From NCBI RefSeq assembly GCF_036046055.1, contig NZ_CP107939.1, positions 5,208,001 through 5,272,000 of the forward strand: a stretch of 64,000 nucleotides of DNA. The letters run 5' to 3'. The stretch comes from Nocardia sp. NBC_00403. GTDB taxonomy: Bacteria > Actinomycetota > Actinomycetes > Mycobacteriales > Mycobacteriaceae. The notes under the pieces are model-generated. The model saw only the letters and a program-made list of their open reading frames with translations, searched no databases and had not been told where the DNA came from. The stretch's first letter is position 1. Each line of letters starts with the position of its first letter. Of this stretch, positions 57,957-63,554 are shown one piece after another. A program made the position numbers and the translations under genes.

Positions 57957-57973
57957 CTTGAACGTCGTTCAAG
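57957..57973. promoter_or_regulatory. Candidate biotin-repressor (BioQ-like) operator
   Basis: CTTGAAC-GTC-GTTCAAG is a perfect 7-bp inverted repeat, 22-38 nt before the bioY GTG. GAAC...GTTC palindromes of this type are operators of the TetR-family regulator BioQ in actinobacteria. Nothing else in the gap resembles a control site. Confidence 0.65.
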
Positions 57974-57994
57974 TTGATAGCGAAGGATGTCGTC

Positions 57995-58579
57995 GTGGCA
58001 GGTGTCGAGAGCCCTCGGAAGTCGAGGGTCGGTATGTCCGCGCGGGACATGGCGCAGATCGCCGTGTTCGCGGCGTTGATCGCAGCGTTGGGCCTGCCGG
58101 GCGCCATCACGGTCGGATTCAGCGGTGTGCCGATCACGGTGCAGACCCTCGGTGTCATTCTGGCCGGTGCGGTGCTCGGGGCGCGCAAGGGCACGGCCGC
58201 GGTCGTGGTCTTCCTCGCGCTGACGATGATCGGGTTGCCGCTGCTGTCCGGCGGCCGTACCGGATTGACGGCGCTGGCTGGTCCGAGTGTCGGTTACCTC
58301 ATCGGCTGGATTCCAGCGGCGCTGTTCATCGGCTTGTGCACCGCCCGGATCCTGCCGAAGTACCCGATCGTGCTCGGTCTGGTCGTCAACGCGGTCGGCG
58401 GGATTCTGATCCTCTATGTCCTCGGCACAGTTGGTCTGCTGCTGCGCACCGATCTGGATTTCCGGCACGCCATCACCACCAACTTCGCGTTCATTCCGGG
58501 TGACCTGCTCAAGGTTGTCGTGGCGACGGTCGTCGCCAAGGGGGTGCACCGCGCATACCCCGGTCTGATCCGTGCGTAG
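57995..58579 (+). CDS. bioY: BioY, biotin-binding S component of ECF transporter
   Basis: The 194-residue membrane protein has six TMs and BioY hallmarks: MAQIAVFAALIAALGLPGAI, GVPITVQTLGVILAGAVLGA (ITxQT(L/F)GV), RKGTAAVVVFLALTMIGLPL, GPSVGYLIGWIPAALFIG and NFAFIPGDLLKVVVATVVAK (GDxxK). It captures biotin and docks on BioM/BioN. GTG 57995 has GAAGG upstream; TTG 57974 is a less likely start inside the operator. First gene of a six-gene operon. Confidence 0.92.
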   Translation: MAGVESPRKSRVGMSARDMAQIAVFAALIAALGLPGAITVGFSGVPITVQTLGVILAGAVLGARKGTAAVVVFLALTMIGLPLLSGGRTGLTALAGPSVGYLIGWIPAALFIGLCTARILPKYPIVLGLVVNAVGGILILYVLGTVGLLLRTDLDFRHAITTNFAFIPGDLLKVVVATVVAKGVHRAYPGLIRA

Positions 58580-58604
58580 TCCCGAACTCGGGGGCGCGGG
58601 TGAC

Positions 58605-59693
58605 ATGCCCGCTCTCGACATCGACGGCCGCACCTACACCTATGCGCAGCTCGACGCCGCGATCGAGCGGTGGATCGATCGGCACGGGCCGCGGGAGCCG
58701 GTCTACGACGCGTCGATGCTCACGATTGCGGACGCGTTGATCTGTATCTGTGCCGCAGCACGCCGAGGCATCCCGGTGATCGTCGAGAACCCCGACGCCC
58801 GCCCGCACCGCCCGAGTATTCCGCCGTCGGCATTTCTGCTGGTGACCACTTCGGGCTCCACCGGAAGGCCACGGGCACTGGCGCGGACCGCCGCATCCTG
58901 GTTCGACACTTTCCCCGCGTTCACCACGATCACCGGCATCCTGGCCACCGATCGCGTATTGATCACCGGCCCGCTGCACGCGACGATGCACCTGTTCGGC
59001 GCGCTGCATGCATTGTGGCGAGGCGGGTGCGTCACCGACGATCCGTCGCAGGCCACGGTCGTGCACGCGGTCCCTGCCGTGCTGCGGGAGGTGGTGCGCA
59101 CCGCTGCGCGGTTGCGCACGGCAATCGTCGCGGGCATCGCCCTGGACGACGGCGCCGCGGCAGCGGCCGAGGGTATTGCGCTCATCGAGTACTACGGGTC
59201 CGCAGAAGTTTCCCTCGTCGCGGCGCGCCGGGTCCCCGAGCCGCTTCGACTGATCGACGGCGTCGACGCCGAGGTGCGCGGGGGACTGCTCTACATCCGT
59301 TCTCCCTATAGCGTGCTCGGCGCCCCCGAATGGTTCGGTGTCGGCGACCTCGCCGAGCTGGGTGATAACCGCGAGCTCACGGTTCGTGGCCGTGGCGAGT
59401 TCGCGATCAACGTCGGTGGCACCACCGTGGTCGCCGAAGATGTCGAGCGCATCCTCGAAACGATCGATGGTGTCACCGCCGCGGCCGTCATCGGATCGCC
59501 GCACGCTGTATTCGGTGAAACCGTCACCGCTGCAGTGCAACTCGACGGCGCGAGCATCGAGGAGATCCGCTCGCGCGCCCGCGGAGTGCTGACGAAGGAG
59601 GCCATGCCGCGTCGCTGGGTGGCACTGCAGGCGCTGCCGCGGACCGGCGGCGGCAAGGTCGCTCGTGGTCGGCTGAAAGAGTTGCTGACATGA
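58605..59693 (+). CDS. AMP-forming acyl-CoA ligase-like enzyme 1 of the biotin operon
   Basis: The ANL-superfamily enzyme is short (362 residues; typical 500+). Motifs: A3 loop FLLVTTSGSTGRPRALART, A5 YYGSAEVSLVAAR, A7 GVGDLAELGDNRELTVRGRG, A8 INVGGTTVVAEDVERILETI and the A10 catalytic Lys in RTGGGKVARGRLKELL. It probably activates a carboxylate as acyl-AMP then acyl-CoA. ATG 58605 (GGGGGCGCGGG upstream) is preferred; GTG 58572 overlaps bioY by 8 bp. A ligase-thiolase-bioY grouping also occurs in Bacillus (yhfU-yhfT-yhfS). Confidence 0.82.
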   Translation: MPALDIDGRTYTYAQLDAAIERWIDRHGPREPVYDASMLTIADALICICAAARRGIPVIVENPDARPHRPSIPPSAFLLVTTSGSTGRPRALARTAASWFDTFPAFTTITGILATDRVLITGPLHATMHLFGALHALWRGGCVTDDPSQATVVHAVPAVLREVVRTAARLRTAIVAGIALDDGAAAAAEGIALIEYYGSAEVSLVAARRVPEPLRLIDGVDAEVRGGLLYIRSPYSVLGAPEWFGVGDLAELGDNRELTVRGRGEFAINVGGTTVVAEDVERILETIDGVTAAAVIGSPHAVFGETVTAAVQLDGASIEEIRSRARGVLTKEAMPRRWVALQALPRTGGGKVARGRLKELLT

Positions 59694-60817
59694 ATCACAT
59701 CCCCGTTCTGGTGGCGCCGCGTCGAACGCCGATCGGCAACGCCGGGCACGGGTTCGCCGATCTGACCGTTACCGATCTGGCCACCCCGGTGCTGCGCGAA
59801 GTGCTGACCACGGTGCGTGGCGCGGGCATCGACGCCGAGGTGGACGATGTCATCCTGGGCAACTGCCTCGGGCCGGGTGGCGACCCCGCGCGGATCGTGG
59901 CACTGCACGCCGGTGCGGGCGTACACGTTCCCGGCGTCACGGTCGATCGCCAGTGCGGCTCCGGCCTGGATGCTGTCATGCAGGCGGCGTTGCGGGTGCG
60001 CAGCGGCGCGGACGAACTCATTCTGGCCGGCGGCGTCGAGTCCGCGAGCACAGCGCCGTGGCGCTTCTGGCCGCCGATCGCGGACGCTGATCCCGTGCGC
60101 TACACCCGCGCCCCCTTTGCGCCACCAGGCTTTCCCGATCCCGACATGGGTGCGGCCGCCGACGACCTCGCGCGCGTGCGCGGCATCAGCAGACAACGGC
60201 AGGATGCCTATGCCGCGCGTTCGCACGCCCTCGCTGCCGCAGCCGACTTCTCCGCGGAGATCGTGCCCATCGGTGACGTGCACCGCGACGAACGCATCCG
60301 CGCAGGGATGACCGAAGCCAGGCTGGCGCGACTGCGCCCCAGTTTCGGCGTCGAGGGCACGGCGACCGCGGGTAACTCGTGCGGTATCTCCGACGGCGCC
60401 GCAATGTTGGCGGTCACCAGTGAGTCGCTGGCCGCTGGACAGCCAGCGTTGCGGATACTCGGGTCGGCGGTGGCCGGCTCCGATCCGGCGTTTCCCGGTC
60501 TCGGACCGGTGACCGCCATTCGGAAACTGCTGCGGCGCACCGGTGTCGATACCAAGGATCTCGGTGTCATCGAGATCACCGAAGCCTTCGCCTCGGTGGT
60601 GCTTGCGGTGTCCGATGAACTGGGTTTGGACGAATCCACGATCTGTCCGCAGGGCGGCGCCATCGCGATGGGTCATCCGTGGGGTGCGTCCGGAGCTATC
60701 TTGCTGGTGCGGTTGGCAAGTCAGATGCTGCGCGAGGGTGGCCCCACGCTCGGGCTCGCGGCGTGTGCCATCGGCGGCGGGCAAGGCATCGCGATGCTCG
60801 TGGAGCGAGTGTCGTGA
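59690..60817 (+). CDS. Thiolase of the biotin operon (YhfS-like)
   Basis: The 375-residue thiolase has acyl-binding Cys in VTVDRQCGSGLDAVMQAALR, NEAF-type motif as ITEAFASVVLAV, His in GGAIAMGHPWGASGAILLVR and the second Cys in AACAIGGGQGIAML. It either cleaves 3-oxoacyl-CoA or condenses acyl-CoAs. The family (acetyl-CoA acetyltransferase) often carries NEAFA; here the first residue is Thr. It overlaps the ligase by 4 bp. With the ligase it could shorten side chains of biotin-like acids or of their precursors. Confidence 0.88.
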   Translation: MNHIPVLVAPRRTPIGNAGHGFADLTVTDLATPVLREVLTTVRGAGIDAEVDDVILGNCLGPGGDPARIVALHAGAGVHVPGVTVDRQCGSGLDAVMQAALRVRSGADELILAGGVESASTAPWRFWPPIADADPVRYTRAPFAPPGFPDPDMGAAADDLARVRGISRQRQDAYAARSHALAAAADFSAEIVPIGDVHRDERIRAGMTEARLARLRPSFGVEGTATAGNSCGISDGAAMLAVTSESLAAGQPALRILGSAVAGSDPAFPGLGPVTAIRKLLRRTGVDTKDLGVIEITEAFASVVLAVSDELGLDESTICPQGGAIAMGHPWGASGAILLVRLASQMLREGGPTLGLAACAIGGGQGIAMLVERVS

Positions 60818-60889
60818 GTGAGTACAGCGAACGAGCCGGGTTGCTGTGCATCCGGCGCACGAGCGGTAGTGAGGCGCAGTCGTGAGTGA
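60812..60889 (+). repeat. MIRU-like 68-bp insert at the thiolase/bioM junction
   Basis: TCGTGAGTGA occurs at 60812-60821 and again at 60880-60889, as direct repeats. The first carries the thiolase TGA plus an overlapping GTG; the second carries the bioM GTG. The 68 bp between keep a 23-codon frame (VSEYSERAGLLCIRRTSGSE to TGA) that overlaps both neighbours. The insert thus preserves stop/start overlap, as mycobacterial MIRU elements do. Confidence 0.65.
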
Positions 60890-61562
60890 CATTGTTTTCG
60901 ACTCGGTCGGCCACCACTTCGGTGATCGAAAAGTGTTGCGCAACATCGATTTGCGCATCTGCGAGCGTCGCGTCGGCATTATCGGATCCAACGGCTCCGG
61001 CAAGTCGACCTTGGCGCGCATGATCAACGGGTTGTTGCGACCGACCTCCGGCACTGTCACCGTCGATGGGGTCGACGCGGCAAGGCAGGGCGCACAGGTG
61101 CGCCGCAAGGTCGGGTTCGTATTCACCGACCCCGACACCCAGATCGTGATGCCCACCGTCTCGGAGGATCTCGCATTCTCGCTGCGACGGACGGGGCTGA
61201 GCAAGCAGGAGGTCGCGGCGCGCGTCGAGGAGTTGCTGGTCCGGTTCGGGCTGGCGGAGCACGCCGAGCATCCCTCGCACCTGTTGTCCGGCGGTCAGAA
61301 GCAGTTGCTGGCCATCGGCGCGGTTCTCATCCGCCGACCGGAGGTGATCATCGCCGATGAGCCGACCACCCTGCTGGATCTGCGCAACGCCCGTGTGGTC
61401 GCCGCCGCGCTCGACTCCGTGGACCAGCAGGTGATCGTGGTGACCCACCAGCTGTCGCTGCTGGAGAGCTTCGAACGCGTCATCGTCATCGATGACGGTG
61501 CTGTGGCGTTCGACGGAATCCCCAGTGAAGCTGTCCCCGCATATCGGGCATCGGTCGGATGA
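60882..61562 (+). CDS. bioM: BioM, ECF transporter ATPase for biotin
   Basis: The 226-residue CbiO/EcfA-type ATPase has Walker A GSNGSGKST, Q loop VGFVFTDPDTQIVMPTVSED (the DPDxQ of ECF ATPases), signature LLSGGQKQLLAIGAVL, Walker B VIIADEPTTLLDLRNA and H-loop VIVVTHQLSLLE. It powers the BioMNY complex. GTG 60882 is at the right edge of the MIRU-like insert. It overlaps bioN by 4 bp (ATGA). Confidence 0.93.
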   Translation: MSDIVFDSVGHHFGDRKVLRNIDLRICERRVGIIGSNGSGKSTLARMINGLLRPTSGTVTVDGVDAARQGAQVRRKVGFVFTDPDTQIVMPTVSEDLAFSLRRTGLSKQEVAARVEELLVRFGLAEHAEHPSHLLSGGQKQLLAIGAVLIRRPEVIIADEPTTLLDLRNARVVAAALDSVDQQVIVVTHQLSLLESFERVIVIDDGAVAFDGIPSEAVPAYRASVG

Positions 61563-62161
61563 TCGGTGTGTATCTTCCCGGTGACTCGCTGCTGCACCGG
61601 ATGCCTGCCGGATCGAAACTGGTGCTGCTGATCACCTCGATCGTGACGGCCACGGTGTTCGTGCGTGGCCCGGTGGCCGTCGCAGTGGTGGGGGTGCTGG
61701 TGGCGGGATTGTTCGCGATGGCCGGTGTTCCATGGAAAGTCGTTGTGGCCCAACTGCGTCCGATGGTGTGGATGCTGCTGATCATCGCCACGTTCCAGGT
61801 GCTGATCACCTCGCCCGCGCGTGCGGTTGTCGTGTGCGGTGTGTTGCTGATCTCGGTGGCGCTCGCGGCGCTGGTCACGCTCACCACGCGGGTCACCGAC
61901 ATGCTCGACGCCGTGACGCGTGCGCTCGGACCGCTGCGCAAGGTGGGGGTCGACCCTGAGCGGATCGGGCTGCTGCTGGCGCTGGCCATCCGGTGTGTTC
62001 CGCTGCTGACCGAGATCGTGCACGACGTCGCCGAGGCCAGGCGTGCTCGCGGGTTGCAGTGGTCGATGACGGCGCTGGTCACACCGGTGCTGGTACGAGC
62101 GCTGCGCACCGCGGACGCGATGGGTGACGCGCTCGCCGCCAGGGGTGTCGACGATGACTGA
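61559..62161 (+). CDS. bioN: BioN, ECF transporter T component
   Basis: The 200-residue EcfT-type membrane protein begins MIGVYLPGDSLLHRMPAGSK (the PG.S.LHR...G.K entry is typical). Four or five TMs follow, then the coupling helices with VGVDPERIGLLLALAIRCVP and EARRARGLQWS (A-R-R type motif that contacts the ATPase). It scaffolds BioY on BioM. It overlaps the next ligase by 8 bp. Confidence 0.92.
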   Translation: MIGVYLPGDSLLHRMPAGSKLVLLITSIVTATVFVRGPVAVAVVGVLVAGLFAMAGVPWKVVVAQLRPMVWMLLIIATFQVLITSPARAVVVCGVLLISVALAALVTLTTRVTDMLDAVTRALGPLRKVGVDPERIGLLLALAIRCVPLLTEIVHDVAEARRARGLQWSMTALVTPVLVRALRTADAMGDALAARGVDDD

Positions 62162-63554
62162 ACTGTTGGCCGAGCGCATCGTGCGGCGAGTCGGCGAGCA
62201 TCCGGAATCGACGGCGATCGTCGCCGCTCGCGCGAGCATCGACTACCGGGAGTTCTGGTCGCGGGTTACCCGCACCGCCGCCGGGCTCGACGGTATGGAC
62301 AGGGTCGCGGTGCTGCCCACCTCGGATATCGAATCGCTCGTCGCGGTGGCGGCGGCCATGCACGCGGGTGTCAGCGTTGTGCTGCTGCACCGGCACCTGC
62401 TGGCGAATCAACTGGCCCGAGTGCTCGAGCTCGCGAAGCCCAGCGCCGTCGTCGCCGCGCCGCGCCAACACCGGCGGTTGCGCCGCCTGGGCTTCGAGGA
62501 GGATGTGCAGACGGCGTCGGCACTGGAATCCAACGGCCCGGTCGGCCGCGCGCACCCCGAGAACGAACTGCTGGTCGGCATCACCTCCGGCATCACCGGC
62601 GAACCGAAGTTGTTCGTGCGTAACCAACATTCGTGGGCCACCACCCTCGATCGCTCCGACAACACCTTCGATATCGGCCGCGGCGATCGCGTCGCGGTGC
62701 CCGGTGTCCTCGACCACACGCATTTTCTCTACGGTGCCCTGCATGCCCTCACCCGTGGCGCGACAGTGGACCTGCGGCCGGTGGCGCAGTCGCTGCCCGA
62801 TGGGGCGACACACCTGTATTCGGTGCCGACGATCGCCTGGGATGTGGTGCGGTCGGGCATCGATCCGGTCGAGACCGTCCGTGAGGTGCTGTCCTCGGCG
62901 GCCCGGTGGCCGCGCCCGGGACGCCTTGCGTTGCAGGAGATCGTTCCGAACGCGTCGCTCGTGCATTTCTACGGCGCGTCCGAATTGAGCTTCGTGTCCT
63001 TCGATCGGGGACTCGGGGCCGTCGAGGAGACGTCCGCGGGCCGACTGTTCGACGGCGTCGAGGCGCAGATCCGTGACGAGTTGGTGTTCGTGCGCAGCGA
63101 CATGCTGTTCGACGGCTACCTCACCGACGACGGTGTGGTGAACGGACCGGTCGACGGCTGGATGTCGGTGGGCGACCGAGGCCGCGTGGTCGGCAACCAC
63201 CTACACCTGTTCGGCCGCAGCAGCGACATGCTGATCCGCGCGGGCCTCAATGTAGAACCCGCAGCCATCGAAGCCGCGCTCACCGCGCTACCTGGCATCG
63301 CCGAGGCCGCCTGCCTCGCAGTGCCCGACGCCCGAATGGGTGAAGCGCCCGCCGCCGCGATCGTGGTGCACGACGGTGCGCCGAGCACCGGCGAAATCTG
63401 GCGACACCTGCGCGCGACCCTCCCGAGCCCGAGCATGCCGATCCAGCTCGTGGTTCTCGACAGCCTGCCACGCACTGCGCGCGGAAAACTCGACCGTCAG
63501 GCGCTGTCTGCGATTCTCGCTACTCATCGCGGAGTCGAAGCCCGAACTGCTTAG
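62154..63554 (+). CDS. AMP-forming acyl-CoA ligase-like enzyme 2 of the biotin operon
   Basis: The 466-residue ANL enzyme has A3 LLVGITSGITGEPKLFVRN, A5 LVHFYGASELSFVSFDRG, A7 WMSVGDRGRVVGNHLHLFGR, A8 SDMLIRAGLNVEPAAIEAAL and A10 Lys in LPRTARGKLDRQALSAIL. It is longer than enzyme 1 and probably has a complete N-terminal domain. ATG 62154 overlaps the bioN stop (62159-62161). Two different ligases flanking an ECF importer suggest activation of the imported compound and of a second acid. The substrates (biotin, bisnorbiotin, pimelate or another fatty acid) cannot be read from sequence. Confidence 0.85.
   Translation: MTELLAERIVRRVGEHPESTAIVAARASIDYREFWSRVTRTAAGLDGMDRVAVLPTSDIESLVAVAAAMHAGVSVVLLHRHLLANQLARVLELAKPSAVVAAPRQHRRLRRLGFEEDVQTASALESNGPVGRAHPENELLVGITSGITGEPKLFVRNQHSWATTLDRSDNTFDIGRGDRVAVPGVLDHTHFLYGALHALTRGATVDLRPVAQSLPDGATHLYSVPTIAWDVVRSGIDPVETVREVLSSAARWPRPGRLALQEIVPNASLVHFYGASELSFVSFDRGLGAVEETSAGRLFDGVEAQIRDELVFVRSDMLFDGYLTDDGVVNGPVDGWMSVGDRGRVVGNHLHLFGRSSDMLIRAGLNVEPAAIEAALTALPGIAEAACLAVPDARMGEAPAAAIVVHDGAPSTGEIWRHLRATLPSPSMPIQLVVLDSLPRTARGKLDRQALSAILATHRGVEARTA

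Follow-up and report, generated by a model that had tools for sequence, protein, structure and literature searches.

The bioYMN genes of Corynebacterium glutamicum encode a BioY-BioM-BioN importer that was shown to take up biotin, and they carry a BioQ-type box, the predicted BioQ site being TGAAC-N3-GTTCA (PMC3398298). In Bacillus subtilis, BirA binds yhfUTS, whose order is BioY-ligase-thiolase (PMC4016012); in Staphylococcus aureus, yhfS-yhfT is under BirA control and repressed by biotin (PMC6391492). The BioY gene, SMc00965 and SMc00966 of Sinorhizobium meliloti respond jointly to NolR (PMC12445080). In the BioZ route, a thiolase-superfamily enzyme with a Cys-His-Asn triad adds two carbons to an acid activated by coenzyme A (CoA), and fatty-acid-type reduction then leads to pimeloyl-acyl carrier protein (pimeloyl-ACP) (PMC8024396). 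Here we describe a six-gene operon in a 64,000-nucleotide stretch (the window, positions 5208001-5272000 of the 8.7-Mb single-contig genome) of Nocardia sp. NBC_00403, whose proteins have most of their nearest listed relatives in Nocardia. Open reading frames and Pfam matches place bioY, ligase 1, a thiolase-fold gene, bioM, bioN and ligase 2 in this order on the plus strand at 57995-63554. The reading we favour, to which we give a little less than an even chance, is that of a biotin-controlled salvage system that would re-extend imported, shortened biotin by a decarboxylative two-carbon condensation.

The locus belongs to the yhfUTS kind, and its pathway would be new if proven. An earlier account made from the letters of the window (hereafter the sequence-only reading) had drawn the parallel with the BirA-governed Bacillus operon, rightly so for B. 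subtilis (PMC4016012) and, for yhfS-yhfT, S. aureus (PMC6391492). Besides the gene order, the two systems probably have biotin control in common; the Nocardia operon differs in its BioQ-type box in place of a BirA box, its own bioM and bioN, its second ligase, a thiolase with Thr and Ala at two catalytic places, and ligase and thiolase scores below the curated cut-offs of PRK07638 and PRK06690. The C. glutamicum operon has neither ligase nor thiolase, and this plain form accounts for 40 of 60 sampled Mycobacteriaceae loci. The S. meliloti locus has bioM-bioN-bioY-ligase-thiolase in order, but it keeps the catalytic Asn, possesses a single ligase (in two frames in the strain fetched) and is adjoined by a thioesterase and a zinc dehydrogenase. 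BioZ is KAS III-like (3-ketoacyl-ACP synthase III), whereas the cassette enzyme is of the thiolase family and is present also in genomes without bioB. In the literature searched, which left most subscription journals outside its coverage, we found no bacterial re-extension of nor-biotins and no function for yhfTS; the passages available on yhfT and yhfS assign them only labels of the kind "putative fatty acid ligase operon".

The first line of evidence is the active site of the thiolase-fold enzyme. In the thiolase of Zoogloea the nucleophile is Cys89 and the base is Cys378, and the enolate is stabilised by Asn316 and His348 (PMC3406046). By profile alignment, the window enzyme keeps Cys89 and has His329 at the place of His348, with Thr and Ala at the places of Asn316 and Cys378; when the linked enzymes are aligned with solved thiolases, Gly or Ala stands at the position of Cys378. 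In a first set, Cys378 was absent from all 27 BioY-linked proteins, the window enzyme included (A 13, G 12, S 2), and kept by 57 of 61 other thiolases, the four exceptions being proteins that also adjoin a ligase and carry DRQC or DQQC. Once Mycobacteriaceae and Bacilli were added, none of 91 linked proteins had Cys378 (A 34, G 53, S 3, one gap), and all 60 others did. These 91 include four proteins that lie beside a ligase and inside the linked clade (L040, L055, L067, L086); counted among the others are L206, L209 and L210, which carry DRQC with Cys378 and stand beside neither BioY nor a contiguous ligase, and L044, L046 and L053, which have Cys378 and, within reach, a ligase-like frame. Equivalents of the nucleophilic Cys89 and of His348 are found in 91/91 linked proteins, as are Asp86 and Gln88 before the nucleophile, and an aromatic residue follows GHP in 90/91 linked proteins vs 1/60 others. 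A FastTree phylogeny separates 54 linked proteins from 61 others fully, with support 1.0, in a sample picked by similarity to the query, which makes the 61 others the ordinary thiolases closest to it.

Asn316 divides the clade (58/91 linked vs 60/60 others). All 41 Bacilli members retain it, as do Arthrobacter, Blastococcus, Streptomyces albireticuli and, Microvirga apart, the Alphaproteobacteria sampled; its place is taken by Thr in Nocardia, Rhodococcus and Nigerium, and by Val in Streptosporangiales. Of the residues of a classical 3-oxoacyl-CoA thiolase, the window enzyme has the nucleophilic Cys and the His, and lacks Cys378 and Asn316; against the BioZ/KAS III triad it reads Cys-His-Thr, while Bacilli and most alphaproteobacterial relatives retain Cys-His-Asn. 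The Pfam scan returned no KAS III model for it and a weak ketoacyl-synt match (21.3 bits). Because the base is lost while Cys-His-Asn is retained, these sequences suggest a decarboxylative condensation. One alternative, which we regard as rather unlikely, is activation with trapping or acyl transfer: biotin would become biotinyl-CoA, and a Cys-His thiolase-fold protein would move or release the acyl group without making a C-C bond, possibly in the actinobacterial branch alone. The window enzyme, with Cys89 and His329 and without Cys378 and Asn316, would suit such a role, as would the absence of reductive genes from actinobacterial operons; against it, Arthrobacter, Blastococcus and S. albireticuli keep Asn316, and in Bacilli, members of this clade are encoded together with a ketoreductase, a dehydratase and an enoyl reductase.

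Those Bacilli cassettes are the second line of evidence. From the B. subtilis control match, we take PRK06690 and PRK07638 to be the YhfS and YhfT models: among 14 control genomes B. subtilis alone matches PRK06690, over its cut-off, and a strong match occurs in 66 of 398 genomes of the class of Calidifontibacillus (G396). In Nocardia the operon thiolase is the genome's best PRK06690 match (310.7 bits, next 245.2), below the curated cut-off. The Bacilli set comprises 40 of 68 listed places and four named Bacillota loci, 44 in all, reduced to 41 by removing L206, L209 and L210 (other thiolases). A protein with an FAS1_DH region together with a MaoC protein is encoded at 12/41 loci, a short-chain dehydrogenase/reductase (SDR) at 14/41 and a FabK-like protein at 9/41; at least one reductive partner is present at 23/41 and all of them at 5/41. 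The checked dehydratase, SDR and FabK calls are supported by Pfam or NCBIfam, the remaining assignments coming from custom profiles. The complete form, bioY-ligase-thiolase-FAS1_DH-MaoC-SDR-EcfA-EcfA-EcfT-FabK, occurs in L191, L195 and L197, and in L186 and L188 with BioY not detected. FabK is a member of the nitronate monooxygenase family. Against TIGR03151, five of the FabK-like proteins reach 279-300 bits, short of the 453 that its cut-off demands, and the SDR of L184 is closest to FabG models. A second arrangement, bioY-FabK-thiolase-ligase in L189 and FabK-thiolase-ligase in L193, L199 and L207, represents a separate lineage with thiolases 53-56% identical to that of L191. Taken from its gene content, the Bacilli set reads as a reductive two-carbon extension cycle, not as beta-oxidation.

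The sequence-only reading had proposed that side chains are adjusted as CoA thioesters by thiolysis or condensation. The condensation half is supported by the dehydratase, ketoreductase and enoyl-reductase-like genes that relatives add; thiolysis is disfavoured because the Claisen-base cysteine is absent and the added genes point to reduction. A beta-oxidative shortening, in which the enzyme would thiolyse 3-oxo forms of biotin or of longer analogues, is accordingly very improbable in our view: the thiolase fold and the TIGR01930 match (338.6 bits) speak for it, but the base is missing in the whole clade, the partners are FabG-like and FabK-like, and the sole acyl-CoA dehydrogenase among the checked flanking genes lies ~5 kb downstream in L187. 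In addition, biotin-repressed operators imply expression when biotin is scarce (PMC3398298, PMC6391492), which argues against a degradative role.

Control by biotin forms the third line of evidence. The perfect palindrome CTTGAACGTCGTTCAAG ends 21 bp 5' of the likely bioY start; the sequence-only reading had begun its feature at 57957, the first base of this palindrome, and left it unnamed. The exact operator core occurs at six places in the genome, a reversed control pattern at one. Three of the sites share one region: one precedes bioA, one precedes bioF (then bioD), and one separates bioB from a divergent gene of the TetR family. A fourth is that of the window operon; bioA, bioD and bioB pass curated models, and the bioF frame falls below its own (377.5 vs 426.5 bits). 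A predicted box before both the operon and the bio genes, with a TetR gene beside bioB, is the pattern of a BioQ regulon, so the operon is likely under biotin control through a box common to bioA, bioF and bioB/TetR. Among Mycobacteriaceae, an exact box precedes 17/20 cassette operons vs 9/40 plain bioYMN loci. At 26/41 Bacilli loci a BirA-like dyad (0-3 mismatches) is found close to the first gene of the cassette; random windows drawn from these loci have 4.6-6.3 mismatches on average, and single windows reach 1-3. The two further exact boxes, about 6273871 (L010:3872) and 6633272 (L011:3273), have nearly identical flanks; an IS256-family transposase gene lies at one of them, and no transposase frame was called at the other. 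These may be chance occurrences or operator capture. No Rfam model matched the 64-kb window at gathering thresholds.

The fourth line of evidence is the distribution of biotin synthesis genes. In the named cassette genomes and records, bioB is over cut-off in 15/20. The other five are Shinella curvata, Blastococcus TF02A-26, Microbispora H11081, one genome of the Rhodobacteraceae and the 3.7-Mb S. meliloti record; bioD and bioA are over cut-off in 0/5 of these. Three comparison genomes with bioB were scored as well: two pass for bioA and bioD alike, and Calidifontibacillus for neither. S. meliloti 1021 is not known to carry bioA or bioD. No bioB match was found in 12/30 Bacilli cassette genomes at 1e-40 or in 2/20 Mycobacteriaceae cassette genomes at 1e-60 (G278, G530). 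Taken together, 18/69 whole cassette genomes lack bioB (4/19 named, 12/30 Bacilli, 2/20 Mycobacteriaceae), a count that leaves out the S. meliloti record, in which some Mycobacteriaceae may sit in two sets and the completeness of the named and Bacilli genomes is not known. FabK-bearing Bacilli cassettes lack bioB in 8/9 cases vs 4/21 of the rest (Fisher p = 0.0006, not corrected for kinship), and all five genomes with the full extension set are among those without it. Co-occurrence of cassette and biotin synthesis within Mycobacteriaceae was set aside as an argument, since 194/201 genomes have bioB and only the bioB-less genomes are telling.

These counts bear on pimeloyl supply, in which ligase and condensing enzyme would make pimeloyl-CoA (e.g. 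from glutaryl-CoA and two carbons, as BioZ does) for BioF, BioA, BioD and BioB, the importer being merely co-regulated. Its chemistry would be that of BioZ (PMC8024396), the window operon appears co-regulated with bioA and bioF through the shared box, and 51/69 cassette genomes have bioB; nevertheless, adjacency to BioY is constant, the five bioB-less genomes and records score below cut-off for bioA and bioD too, and the 18 genomes without bioB include every full extension set, so we consider this explanation unlikely. The sequence-only reading had allowed for pimelate-like acids as well. As a general role they are disfavoured because of those 18 genomes; its salvage idea survives as extension, without thiolysis or pimelate supply as the general role.

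In the mechanism we favour, biotin, or biotin with a shortened side chain, would enter through the predicted BioMNY, a ligase would convert the imported acid to its CoA thioester, the thiolase-fold enzyme without Claisen base would add two carbons by a BioZ-like decarboxylative condensation, and reductases with a dehydratase would then restore the biotin side chain. Bisnorbiotin, the first beta-oxidation product of biotin, one round shorter than the vitamin and already bearing its ring, would be the best candidate substrate, and malonyl-CoA or malonyl-ACP the probable donor; in the window organism, whose operon has no reducing enzymes, housekeeping fatty-acid enzymes would supply these steps. 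Extension of a ring-bearing import is the simplest account because ligase, base-less enzyme, reductive genes, importer, operator and bioB-less genomes coincide.

Several observations weigh against this mechanism. A reductive partner is absent at 18/41 Bacilli loci, and no reductive gene lies near the window operon or any of the 20 Mycobacteriaceae cassettes, nor does any other exact BioQ box in the genome mark such genes. The FabK-like, FabG-like, YhfS and YhfT models score mostly below curated cut-offs. With thiolases 73-95% identical, the five full cassettes belong to a single lineage, which deprives the FabK-bioB statistics of independence, and a good BirA-like dyad is found in only two of them (L195, L197), the others having 5-6 mismatches (L186, L188, L191). 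Thr at the Asn316 place weakens condensation for the window enzyme, and Streptosporangiales have Val. The window organism has bioA, bioF, bioD and bioB, and most cassette genomes have bioB. Some clade members do not stand beside BioY (Rhizobium plasmids, small Bacilli genomes, L040, L055, L067, L086). Extension would also use malonyl units, of which a cell starved of biotin is short, though the vitamin is needed in catalytic amounts only. The condensation reading is weaker for the window itself, with Asn316 gone, reducing enzymes outside the operon and the four bio genes present; its actinobacterial relatives and it may by now be confined to acyl transfer, or may depend on fatty-acid enzymes encoded elsewhere in the cell's genome.

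More tentatively, we raise the possibility that bacteria of at least three phyla import clipped biotin (bisnorbiotin, tetranorbiotin) through BioY and lengthen it again in a dedicated cycle of fatty-acid type, made up of ligase, base-less synthase, two-subunit dehydratase, ketoreductase and FabK-like reductase, letting auxotrophs live on breakdown products. Were this so, some "auxotrophs" would obtain the vitamin from its catabolites in soil, gut and culture media, and models of vitamin exchange resting on bioB alone would be incomplete. The available passages on the B. subtilis and S. aureus regulons give YhfT and YhfS by name only; the present findings open the matter to direct test, by defining a clade of enzymes, by predicting the type of reaction (reductive extension by two carbons, without Claisen base) and by pointing to genomes, some of them without bioB, with almost the entire pathway in their operons.

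The cassette recurs widely. A scan of named genomes with thiolase alignment used the best 80 of 585 confirmed loci plus ten plasmid loci, and in 26 of these BioY and a ligase lie beside the thiolase. The order is bioY-ligase-thiolase in Bacillota (4), bioM-N-Y-ligase-thiolase in Alphaproteobacteria (8) and S. albireticuli (1), bioY-ligase-thiolase-M-N in Streptosporangiales (4), and that of the window in all six named Nocardia and Rhodococcus loci fetched; in Arthrobacter (2) and Blastococcus (1) ligase-thiolase lies beside opposite-strand bioY, M and N. Plasmid records show bioM-bioN-bioY-ligase-thiolase in Azospirillum and Sinorhizobium. L097 was dropped, its low-scoring "BioY" overlapping the thiolase frame, and a Niallia plasmid match was rejected as a Bacillota cassette, being the thiolase of a beta-oxidation cluster. 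The BioY-ligase-thiolase linkage is found in Actinomycetota, Bacillota and Alphaproteobacteria, and the sequence-only reading's view that the link with biotin is functional gains from this recurrence in three phyla and from the operator common to bioA, bioF and bioB. The recurrence of BioY adjacency also counts against a biotin-sparing fatty-acid metabolism, which we hold to be improbable: with biotin scarce and acetyl-CoA carboxylase limiting, ligase and thiolase-like enzyme would process exogenous fatty acids, an idea that draws on S. aureus work (PMC7235819) and on the biotin repression of yhfS-yhfT (PMC6391492). Some ligase-thiolase pairs away from BioY would fit it, but the full extension set would consume malonyl units, scarce in a biotin-starved cell.

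Within Mycobacteriaceae, BioY matches occur in 149/201 genomes (147 over cut-off). Sixty BioY loci spread over genera comprise 20 with cassette and 40 with plain bioY, M and N in some order, the latter including L145 and L164, which have a low-scoring ligase nearby. BioYs of cassette operons form a clade of 21 holding one plain BioY, and the cassette label changes twice on the BioY tree vs a mean of 16.9 in 500 shuffles, which partly tracks genus boundaries.

Both ligases of the window operon have AMP-binding and AMP-binding_C domains with P-loop, A5 and lysine motifs (TSGSTGRPR, YYGSAE and GGKVAR in ligase 1). No specific NCBIfam model passed for either: the best for ligase 1 is PRK07638, far below cut-off, and ligase 2 is the genome's best match to this YhfT-type model (219 bits, next 211; cut-off 518). 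A malonyl-CoA ligase identity was considered and dropped, the best solved relatives being the malonyl-CoA ligases 3nyq (ligase 2, 88 bits) and 4fuq (ligase 1, 56 bits), from which no substrate is inferred. In four Mycobacteriaceae cassettes ligase 1, and in two ligase 2, was not found; because all 20 sampled have the thiolase and at least one ligase, the two look interchangeable.

The features are collected below. All six genes match their expected Pfam families above curated cut-offs, on one strand and in the order that the sequence-only reading had given, and its statement that they overlap almost throughout holds for four of five junctions. The overlaps are 8 bp (bioY/ligase 1), 4 bp (ligase 1/thiolase) and 4 bp (bioM/bioN), the sole gap being the 64 bp between thiolase and bioM. 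For bioN and ligase 2 the overlap is 8 bp from ATG 62154, taken as the start, and 38 bp from GTG 62124, where the longest frame opens; the 8-bp overlap recurs in the named Nocardia loci L043, L051 and L076. The longest bioY frame opens at TTG 57974, and the start is probably GTG 57995, after AAGGA at 57983-57987. With S, A and T components of an energy-coupling factor (ECF) importer all over cut-off (PF02632, PF00005, PF02361), BioMNY is a predicted biotin importer. The flanking genes, a TrkA_C protein and a Na/H-exchanger-family protein on the 5' side and a catalase on the 3' side, are on the opposite strand and not operon members.

Features of the bioY-ligase-thiolase operon, in window coordinates
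Feature	Position	Strand	Basis
Perfect palindrome CTTGAACGTCGTTCAAG, BioQ-type operator	57957..57973	.	sequence; consensus TGAAC-N3-GTTCA
bioY, S component	57995..58579	+	PF02632 122.5 bits
Ligase 1, short AMP-forming acyl-CoA ligase, 373 aa	58572..59693	+	PF00501 and PF13193 over cut-off
Thiolase-fold enzyme, 375 aa	59690..60817	+	PF00108 and PF02803 (Thiolase_N, Thiolase_C); TIGR01930 338.6 bits, over cut-off
Codon of Thr297 at the Asn316 (NEAF motif) place	60578..60580	+	profile alignment
Codon of Ala360 at the Cys378 place	60767..60769	+	profile alignment; Cys359 one residue before
bioM, ECF ATPase	60882..61562	+	PF00005 (ABC_tran) 100.7 bits; TIGR04520 196.4 bits, below its cut-off
bioN, ECF transmembrane component	61559..62161	+	PF02361 (CbiQ) 52.3 bits
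Ligase 2, AMP-forming acyl-CoA ligase	62154..63554	+	PF00501 and PF13193

Some further arrangements were observed among the relatives. In Bacilli, a Vut_1-family (PF02592) transporter frame precedes the full cassette at L186:3746-4459, with frames of equal length at L188:3949-4662 and L191:3682-4395, and an adenine-deaminase-like amidohydrolase frame lies between EcfT and ligase at L187:3170-4897. Six small Bacilli genomes (2.4-2.9 Mb; L200-L205) have a ligase-thiolase of the clade without BioY, and in L202-L205 BirA-like dyads with 1-3 mismatches lie near the ligase start. A thioesterase adjoins the cassette in Sinorhizobium, Shinella and S. albireticuli, and thioesterase-ligase-thiolase of the base-less clade, with BioY not nearby, is found on Rhizobium plasmids (L014:4044-7158, L017:4012-7170, L020:6525-9680). 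The S. albireticuli locus (L034:2357-8179) has the alphaproteobacterial order with a 4HBT thioesterase upstream and a thiolase 63% identical to the Azospirillum one, consistent with a possible transfer between phyla. Genome G595 carries a tandem bioY-ligase 1-thiolase, the first thiolase shorter, and then the complete six-gene operon (L154:6874-14785), a putative recent duplication. Genome G585 has two BioY genes (L156/L157), one in a cassette without adjoining M or N and the other in a plain bioY-M-N, a natural comparison for importer specificity.

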